A stretch of 64,000 bases of DNA from positions 1 to 64,000 of the forward strand of contig JAIMAT010000004.1 in assembly GCA_023511835.1 (NCBI GenBank). The letters run 5' to 3'. The notes beneath the pieces are model-generated. The model ran no database searches. It saw only the letters and a program-made list of their open reading frames with translations, and was not told where the DNA came from. Source of the DNA: Bacillota bacterium. Lineage in GTDB: Bacteria > Bacillota > Sulfobacillia > JAIMAT01. The translations under genes and the position numbers were made by a program. Shown in pieces: positions 2,908 to 37,366 of the stretch (the first letter of the stretch is position 1; each line of letters starts with the position of its first letter).

Positions 2908-3342
2908 TCATCGCACCACCCGCACCGCCACCACGTAGCCGGTGCTCGCCCAATCCCGCGTCTCCATGCTCAGGCTCGAGCCGATGCGGACCTCCTGCCC
3001 CGCCAGCAGCATGCGTTGCGGGCTGACCGTACCCGGCCCGCGGATGACCAGGGTGACGTCGCTATAGAGCGGCGAGGGGGCGACCACCAGGCGCCCGTCG
3101 GGCAGCGCCACCTGCTGCGGTGTCGGCTGCACGCTCTTCTTCACCACCGTGCCCAGCGCCTGCACGCCCTGGGCGTCGTAGACCACCTGCCCGGTCTTCA
3201 TGGCCTCCACCGAGGGCGGGCGCAGGTTGCTGACCAGCACCGTCACCTCCAGCGTCCGCGAGGCCACCGGGCGAGCCTGTCCCACGCCCTTCTGCCAGAA
3301 GAGGGCGACCAGGCCCGCGACCAGGACCACCACCACCAGCAC
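2908..3342 (-). CDS. DUF4330 family membrane-anchored protein
   Basis: Small protein (144 residues from the GTG at 3342) with one N-terminal transmembrane segment (LVVVVLVAGLVALF) and an extracytoplasmic beta-rich domain ending ASTGYVVAVRVVR. It matches my memory of the DUF4330 family, whose members usually begin with a short charged stretch and a conserved N-x-F/W-D motif before the membrane segment. Here the codons directly upstream do read RRAFNWFD in frame, but no ATG, GTG or TTG lies between the upstream in-frame TGA and the GTG at 3342. Either translation starts at GTG 3342 and drops the conserved motif, or a non-standard start or a sequence disruption is involved. It lies between the bshB1-like gene and the polymerase gene. 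Function is unknown; DUF4330 genes are often found near glycan or envelope genes. Confidence 0.7.
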   Translation of the reverse strand: MLVVVVLVAGLVALFWQKGVGQARPVASRTLEVTVLVSNLRPPSVEAMKTGQVVYDAQGVQALGTVVKKSVQPTPQQVALPDGRLVVAPSPLYSDVTLVIRGPGTVSPQRMLLAGQEVRIGSSLSMETRDWASTGYVVAVRVVR

Positions 3343-21061: not shown

Positions 21062-21206
21062 TCCTCTCATCTCTCAGGCCATGCCTGCAGGAGTTGGCAC
21101 CCTGCCGGGTCGCCCCCGCGGCCGCCGTGACGACGGCCGCCGGGAGGCCACCCCGGGTTGCCGGGCTTCATCGGGCCAGTCCCTCCGCCACTCTGGATAA
21201 GAGGCT
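21062..21206 (-). ncRNA. SAM-I (S-box) riboswitch upstream of metY-metX
   Basis: The minus strand reads the S-box consensus blocks in order: CTCTTATCCAGAGTGGCGGA, GGGACTGGCCCGATGAAGCC, CGGCAACCCGG, GGTGCCAACTCCTGCAG and, closing P1, GAGAGATGAGAG. The GATGA kink-turn and the P3/P4 elements are intact; P3 is a long GC-rich hairpin. SAM binding should stabilise the aptamer and allow the terminator at 21046-21017 to form, turning off sulfhydrylase and acetyltransferase synthesis. Confidence 0.97.
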
Positions 21207-35997: not shown

Positions 35998-36603
35998 TTA
36001 GGACTCCGGCTCGATCAGTCCGTAGCTCCCGTCCTGGCGCCGGTAGACCACGTTGATCTCCTCGCTCTCGGCGTTCCGGAAGACGAAGAAGTCGTGGCCC
36101 AGCAGGTTCATCTGCAGGATCGCCTCGTCCACGGGGAGCGGCTTGACCGCGAACCGCTTCCTGCGGACCACGGGAAACTCCTCGCCGCCGCGGATCCCCT
36201 CGTGCCCGGAAGGCTCCGCGGCGGGAGCCTCCGGGGCGCCCTCCGCCCCCTCGGGCGAAGCCGCCAGGCTGGCCGCGGCACCGGCCGTGGCCAGCAGCGT
36301 GCTGTCCTTGCGCAGCTTCCGGTTGAGGCGGGTCTTGAACTTGTGAATCTGCCGCTCCAGCTTGTCCACCACGAGGTCGATGGAGGCGTACATGTCCGCG
36401 CTGGCCACCTCGCCGCGCAGCAGCATGCCGCCCAGGGGAATCGTCACCTCGACCACGTGCCGCTTGCGTTCCACGCTCATGCGCACCTCGGCGTCCACCG
36501 GCCGCTCGCCGAAGTACTTGTCGAGCTTGCTCAGACGCTTGGCCGCGTACTGCCGCAGGGGCCGGGTCACTTCGACATTCCGTCCCGTGAACGTGATCTC
36601 CAA
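35998..36603 (-). CDS. hpf: Ribosome hibernation promoting factor, long form
   Basis: Protein of 201 residues from TTG 36603, chosen because GGAGG lies eight bases upstream and the product then starts LEITFTGRNVEVTRPLRQYA, as HPF proteins do. Residues 1-110 are the ribosome-binding S30AE domain (AAKRLSKLDKYFGERPVDAE, ASADMYASIDLVVDKLERQI). A variable linker follows. The C-terminal dimerisation domain (RRKRFAVKPLPVDEAILQMN, LLGHDFFVFRNAESEEINVV) marks the long form, which joins two 70S ribosomes into 100S dimers in resting cells. In Bacillus hpf is next to secA; here about 6 kb separates them. Its upstream region carries the DnaA-box-like cluster. Confidence 0.93.
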   Translation of the reverse strand: MEITFTGRNVEVTRPLRQYAAKRLSKLDKYFGERPVDAEVRMSVERKRHVVEVTIPLGGMLLRGEVASADMYASIDLVVDKLERQIHKFKTRLNRKLRKDSTLLATAGAAASLAASPEGAEGAPEAPAAEPSGHEGIRGGEEFPVVRRKRFAVKPLPVDEAILQMNLLGHDFFVFRNAESEEINVVYRRQDGSYGLIEPES

Positions 36604-36673
36604 CCGCTGCACCTCCAACGTCCGCCCGCTGGCGGGACGGCGGACCGCCTCGGCGGACGTCACCGCGGCCCGC

Positions 36674-36699
36674 CCGGGGCCGAGCCGGCTCGGCCCCGG
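36674..36699. repeat. 26-base perfect palindrome between hpf and fliS
   Basis: CCGGGGCCGAGCC followed by its exact reverse complement, without a loop. On the minus strand it lies downstream of fliS and 70 bases upstream of hpf. With no T-run it is a weak terminator candidate; a cruciform or a binding site is also possible. Confidence 0.5.
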
Positions 36700-36774
36700 A
36701 CTCCCTATTCCCGGGCGGCCGGAGGATATCCTTCGTCGGCGGGCAGGAGCACCTGGGCGGACGGCGGCAGGAAG

Positions 36775-36871
36775 TGTGGAAAACGGGATCCGACAGCCTG
36801 TGGATACTGTGGGTATCCCTGTGAATAAGCGTGCGCAACAGGCCCGCGGCTGTGGACAGGCCTGTGGGCAA
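36775..36871 (+). repeat. Cluster of six DnaA-box-like 9-mers
   Basis: Six copies of TGTGGATAA-like sequences, all in the same orientation, lie in 97 bases: TGTGGAAAA (36775), TGTGGATAC (36799), TGTGGGTAT (36808), TGTGAATAA (36820), TGTGGACAG (36851) and TGTGGGCAA (36863). TGTGAATAA is a perfect match to the DnaA box consensus TTATNCACA on the other strand; the others differ at one or two places. Neighbours at 36808/36820 and 36851/36863 are 12 bases apart. The patch is A/T-rich for this genome and has no gene. It lies upstream of hpf and downstream of fliS. Confidence 0.65.
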
Positions 36872-36901: not shown

Positions 36902-37366
36902 CTACGAACTGCGCGCCGCCGCTGCGCTGGGATGGGCGGAGGCGCCGCCCCGGGCCTGGCCGGTGCCGGCCGCCAGCCGCTCCCATGCCTCGCGCAGGGG
37001 TGCGATGACGTCCAGGAGGCCGTCCAGCGCGTCCGATGCCGGCCGCAGTTCGGCGCGCACCAGCCGTTCGTAGAGGAAGGCGTAGAGGGCCTCGAGCCGC
37101 GCCGCCACCTCGCCCCCCCGGCGGAAGTCGAGGCTCTGGCGGAGAAGCTGTAGCGCCTCCTTGGCCTTGCCCGTATGCTGCCGCATCTCCTCCGCCTCTT
37201 GGCGCTCCCGGCAGAGGCGCGCGGCCGTCACCTCGCGTTCCAGGATGCGGAAGACGATGGCCACCAGCTGGACGGGCGAGGCGGTCAGCACCTCCGCCCG
37301 CTCGTAGGCGCGGCTCCGCCCGGCGCCCGCCTGCCCGTAACCGGCGGGCGAGAGGCCCCCGTTCAT
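36902..37366 (-). CDS. fliS: Flagellin export chaperone FliS
   Basis: Protein of 154 residues from ATG 37366 with GGAGCG upstream. It is all-helical, with the FliS blocks AYERAEVLTASPVQLVAIVF, RILEREVTAARLC, KAKEALQLLRQSLDFRRGGE and LYAFLYERLVRAELRPASDA. FliS holds flagellin unfolded before export. Neither flagellin nor the cap gene fliD is adjacent, although in Bacillus both lie in this stretch. The C-terminal 25 residues are Ala/Gly rich. Confidence 0.9.
   Translation of the reverse strand: MNGGLSPAGYGQAGAGRSRAYERAEVLTASPVQLVAIVFRILEREVTAARLCRERQEAEEMRQHTGKAKEALQLLRQSLDFRRGGEVAARLEALYAFLYERLVRAELRPASDALDGLLDVIAPLREAWERLAAGTGQARGGASAHPSAAAARSS

Follow-up and report, generated by a model that had tools for sequence, protein, structure and literature searches.

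Clusters of DnaA boxes located outside oriC are known in bacteria. In Bacillus subtilis, such extra-oriC DnaA-box clusters comprise several DnaA boxes in a short non-coding stretch, and B. subtilis DnaA binds strongly downstream of gcp (tsaD) and ydiF in vitro (PMC4447404). Deletion of the six B. subtilis clusters advances replication initiation (Okumura 2012, as summarised in PMC5295017 and PMC13220808). At the sda promoter of B. subtilis, which is activated by DnaA, DnaA boxes lie upstream of the promoter of a gene tied to cell state. In Escherichia coli, the datA, DARS1 and DARS2 loci are also extra-oriC DnaA-box groups, but the DARS loci contain an inverted box, and conversion of the DnaA nucleotide state by such sites is not known in Bacillota. 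The hpf gene of B. subtilis, encoding the ribosome hibernation promoting factor, requires SigH (PMC12421865) and is reported to be under SigH, SigB and CodY sites, with no DnaA site mentioned in the accounts consulted; no hpf region is in the published top-20 list of in vitro DnaA-binding regions of B. subtilis (PMC4447404). Here we describe an array of DnaA-box-like sequences upstream of hpf in a Bacillota genome. The array shares its core geometry with arrays found at the 3' end of tsaD in many Bacillota, but differs from them in its location and in the predicted promoter that follows it, and it is unusually widely conserved. Our literature searches identified no paper linking DnaA boxes to hpf or to a hibernation factor.

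A DnaA-box array between fliS and hpf

The analyzed window is a 64-kb stretch (positions 1-64000 of contig C4; JAIMAT010000004.1) of a 2.36-Mb, 156-contig Bacillota assembly (GCA_023511835.1). The 238-bp gap between fliS (36902-37366, minus strand; PF02561, E 1.5e-24) and hpf (35998-36663, minus strand; long form, PF02482 and PF16321) contains six DnaA-box-like 9-mers in the same orientation. On the plus strand, these start at 36775, 36799, 36808, 36820, 36851 and 36863, with 1, 1, 2, 1, 2 and 2 mismatches to TGTGGATAA, respectively; none matches TGTGGATAA exactly. Read on the minus strand, toward hpf, they are TTGCCCACA (36863-36871), CTGTCCACA (36851-36859), TTATTCACA (36820-36828), ATACCCACA (36808-36816), GTATCCACA (36799-36807, abutting the preceding box) and TTTTCCACA (36775-36783), at offsets -43, -31, 0, +12, +21 and +45 relative to the first box of the core. 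Only the third of these is a perfect TTATNCACA box, and it is one of only three perfect TTATNCACA sites in the whole assembly. The sequence-only reading, which reported six same-strand copies, one of them a perfect DnaA box, and two pairs 12 bp apart, in a non-coding patch far from any dnaA gene, was thus confirmed; the pairs are 36808/36820 and 36851/36863. In 12 simulated 64-kb windows, the largest same-strand cluster was 2, against 6 here.

The dnaA gene of this genome, encoding DnaA with the box-binding domain, is on a different contig (C25), with boxes on both sides of the gene, and the GC skew shows no sign change at the array. Another small group, TTGTACACA-gac-TTCTCCACA followed by TGTGTACAA, with a 12-bp step, was detected at positions 23820-23851 of contig C9, upstream of a small helix-turn-helix-like ORF, and is possibly another DnaA or palindromic regulator site.

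Conservation of the array across the phylum

Upstream regions of hpf in relatives show the same series of boxes. The core consists of TTATnnACA, 3 nt, and TTATnCACA directly followed by nTATnCACA, that is, offsets 0, +12 and +21. A pattern search allowing up to 3 mismatches produced hits in 108 of 151 genomes of the class, mostly one per genome, whereas the reversed pattern produced none; with up to 2 mismatches, 154 of 300 genomes of the phylum were hit, against a single hit for the reversed control. Among the first 61 class genomes, 31 of the 40 with a triple have it within about 1.5 kb of hpf (counted by hand from coordinates), and in the phylum, 32 of the 46 genomes in which both were mapped have it within 4.5 kb of hpf, where 0.3 are expected by chance. 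Because these genomes were chosen for having hits and share ancestry, binomial p-values for this association are too small and should not be taken literally. Overall, the array sits beside hpf, or a csp-hpf operon, in dozens of families. A variant with an 11-bp first step is found in one family (three loci). Within the genus of the window, 43 of 54 box columns are invariant, against 67 of 145 in the rest of the gap; core box 1 is identical in the two congeners, and a TGTCCACA box lies in both at the place of the box at 36775-36783.

The genes upstream of the array vary between lineages (fliS, fliT, comFC, polysaccharide deacetylase and tatC), whereas downstream there is hpf, or csp followed by hpf, with about 110-330 bp from the first box to the first start codon in most loci. 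In one family, csp is divergent from hpf, and the array reads toward csp. There are, however, exceptions. Four Paenibacillus loci have the array reversed relative to csp-hpf; two loci (L070 and L076) have it between hpf and secA instead of upstream of hpf; and in one genome (G011), no csp or hpf lies downstream in its direction. In families f38 and f44, two loci (L184 and L187) show the array with hpf, whereas two genomes (G072 and G106) have it between tatC and uvrA. In several lineages, 2.6-9 kb of transporter or other genes separate the array from csp/hpf, yet it persists. In one locus (L046), a raiA RNA (RF03072, positions 3019-3225 of the locus) lies upstream of the array and hpf.

Many clostridial genomes carry another triple, at the 3' end of tsaD (28 of 32 genomes mapped), apparently the counterpart of the B. 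subtilis gcp-ydiF cluster. This match, inferred by locus and by relatives rather than from the B. subtilis sequence itself, is the main reason to interpret the geometry as a true DnaA-binding array. In the genome of the window, tsaD is on contig C57, and no cluster was found there by a one-mismatch scan. Of 90 triples tabulated, 26 fell at neither hpf, tsaD nor oriC; a third conserved triple (TTATCTACA...TTATCCACTTTATCCACT), in genome G380 (C1:1307047) and genus g100, is likewise at none of these places.

Predicted promoters and Spo0A-box-like sites downstream of the array

Across 43 hpf loci, same-strand boxes peak at -43, -31/-32, 0, +12 and +21, and the opposite strand has no peak. The three core offsets are 100% by construction, because the loci were aligned on them, but the peaks at -43 and -31 are not. 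The tsaD copies share the boxes at -31, 0, +12 and +21, and add one at +35.

Unlike the tsaD copies, the hpf arrays are typically followed by a promoter pattern pointing at csp/hpf: 25 of 34 loci (7 SigH-type and 18 SigA-type, each at p <= 0.05 against shuffles), compared with 2 of 34 in the reverse direction and 1 of 17 at tsaD. In the window, the predicted promoter of hpf is SigH-type, GAAGGATAT-N12-CGGGAATAG at 36705-36734 on the minus strand (-35 at 36734-36726, -10 at 36713-36705), with 2 mismatches to RNAGGAWWW-N11-12-RNNGAATWW; 0 of 60 shuffles were as good, the motif is conserved in the congeners, and the exact motif is found in other families, although all these promoter assignments are consensus matches only. 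No SigA promoter or terminator was found in the gap. A GC-rich inverted repeat (GGGGCCGAGCCGGCTCGGCCCC, 36674-36701) lies between the predicted SigH promoter and hpf. The hpf start codon is uncertain: the true start may lie downstream of the GTG at 36663, possibly a TTG near 36606, judged by eye from a possible ribosome-binding site.

In 25 of 42 hpf loci, a Spo0A-box-like TTCGNCA or its complement (the 0A core is TGTCGAA; PMC3485338) lies within the scanned stretch, against 5.3 expected and 3 of 17 at tsaD. These sites often lie at about +56/67/78/89/100, that is, about one helical turn apart, and occur in many clostridia. The genus of the window has no such match, although its genome encodes Spo0A.

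An RNA element at this site is not supported. No Rfam family was detected there, the only Rfam match in the window being a SAM riboswitch (RF00162, 75.1 bits) at 21064-21203 on the minus strand. The gap folds with z = -2.49, but a strong hairpin lies next to hpf, outside the boxes, and the predicted promoter lies downstream of the array.

Possible functions of the array

Taken together, these observations indicate that the patch is almost certainly an extra-oriC DnaA-box cluster, although DnaA binding here is inferred. We consider it most likely, with moderate confidence, that the array is a DnaA-responsive upstream element of the hpf promoter (csp-hpf in other lineages), on which DnaA would assemble about 40-135 bp upstream of the predicted promoter. 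This promoter is predicted to be SigH-type in the present genome, whereas in many clostridia a SigA-type promoter pattern and helically phased Spo0A-box-like sites lie between the array and the gene. Through such an element, the amount or nucleotide state of free DnaA would adjust hibernation factor synthesis, and by binding several DnaA molecules, the array would also hold DnaA away from oriC, as the B. subtilis clusters do. This interpretation, including the titration, is inferred from sequence, and whether DnaA would activate or repress hpf cannot be inferred in this way. The proposal of the sequence-only reading that such a cluster could titrate DnaA or control nearby genes, with a conceivable link between replication and hibernation, is thus supported: the cluster is conserved in close and distant relatives, such arrays do not occur at random intergenic sites, judging by the reversed-pattern control, and the promoter and Spo0A-site patterns favor control of csp/hpf as well as titration.

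The main alternative, less likely but possible, is that the array is purely a DnaA reservoir that damps replication initiation, its place beside csp/hpf being inherited synteny. The occurrence of the same array at the 3' end of tsaD, mostly without a promoter pattern, the effect of deleting the B. subtilis clusters, the reversed cases, and the location of all 12 mapped hpf arrays in the oriC-proximal half of the chromosome favor this view, and the persistence of the array when inserted operons separate it from hpf is easier to explain by a reservoir than by a promoter element. As a point against a promoter element, B. subtilis, the best-studied relative, regulates hpf without a listed DnaA cluster. 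Conversely, the direction toward csp/hpf is kept in nearly all lineages and follows csp where csp and hpf are divergent, the promoter and Spo0A-like patterns are specific to the hpf copies, and csp/hpf stays next to the array although the upstream neighbors change. Both functions may hold.

Other explanations appear unlikely. Conversion of the DnaA nucleotide state, as by datA or DARS, would fit the fixed multi-box geometry, the frequent presence of one or two copies per genome, the oriC-proximal location and the 12-bp step, which also separates two boxes in DARS1 and DARS2. However, the DARS loci show an inverted box next to the 12-bp pair, whereas the hpf arrays have no opposite-strand box peak, and no IHF homolog and no DARS or datA are known in B. 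subtilis (PMC13220808). A cryptic or former replication origin, suggested by the presence of the same triple beside dnaA in some genomes (L174-L176, G199 and G316), is even less likely, given the absence at this locus of dnaA/dnaN, a GC-skew switch, an AT-rich unwinding segment (the least GC-rich 50-mer in the gap is still 54% GC) and a trio-like repeat. Chance, or sites of another factor resembling DnaA boxes, could be invoked because only one of the six boxes is a perfect TTATNCACA, but is similarly improbable: simulated windows never exceed two boxes, the exact spacing recurs across families with perfect boxes, and the same geometry is found at a locus where DnaA binding is proven in B. subtilis.

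More tentatively, DnaA could be an ancestral direct regulator of ribosome hibernation in Bacillota, assembling on a phylum-wide array upstream of csp-hpf, in many lineages in helical register with Spo0A, so that the replication initiation state and entry into dormancy would set hibernation factor synthesis together. Extra-oriC DnaA-box clusters have been studied mainly in B. subtilis, where the hpf cluster is not on the published list of strong sites. The array provides a sequence signature for finding DnaA regulatory sites in genomes that cannot be grown. Its fixed geometry and its retention with hpf across many families imply long-standing selection and point to a direct, testable link between replication control and ribosome dormancy.
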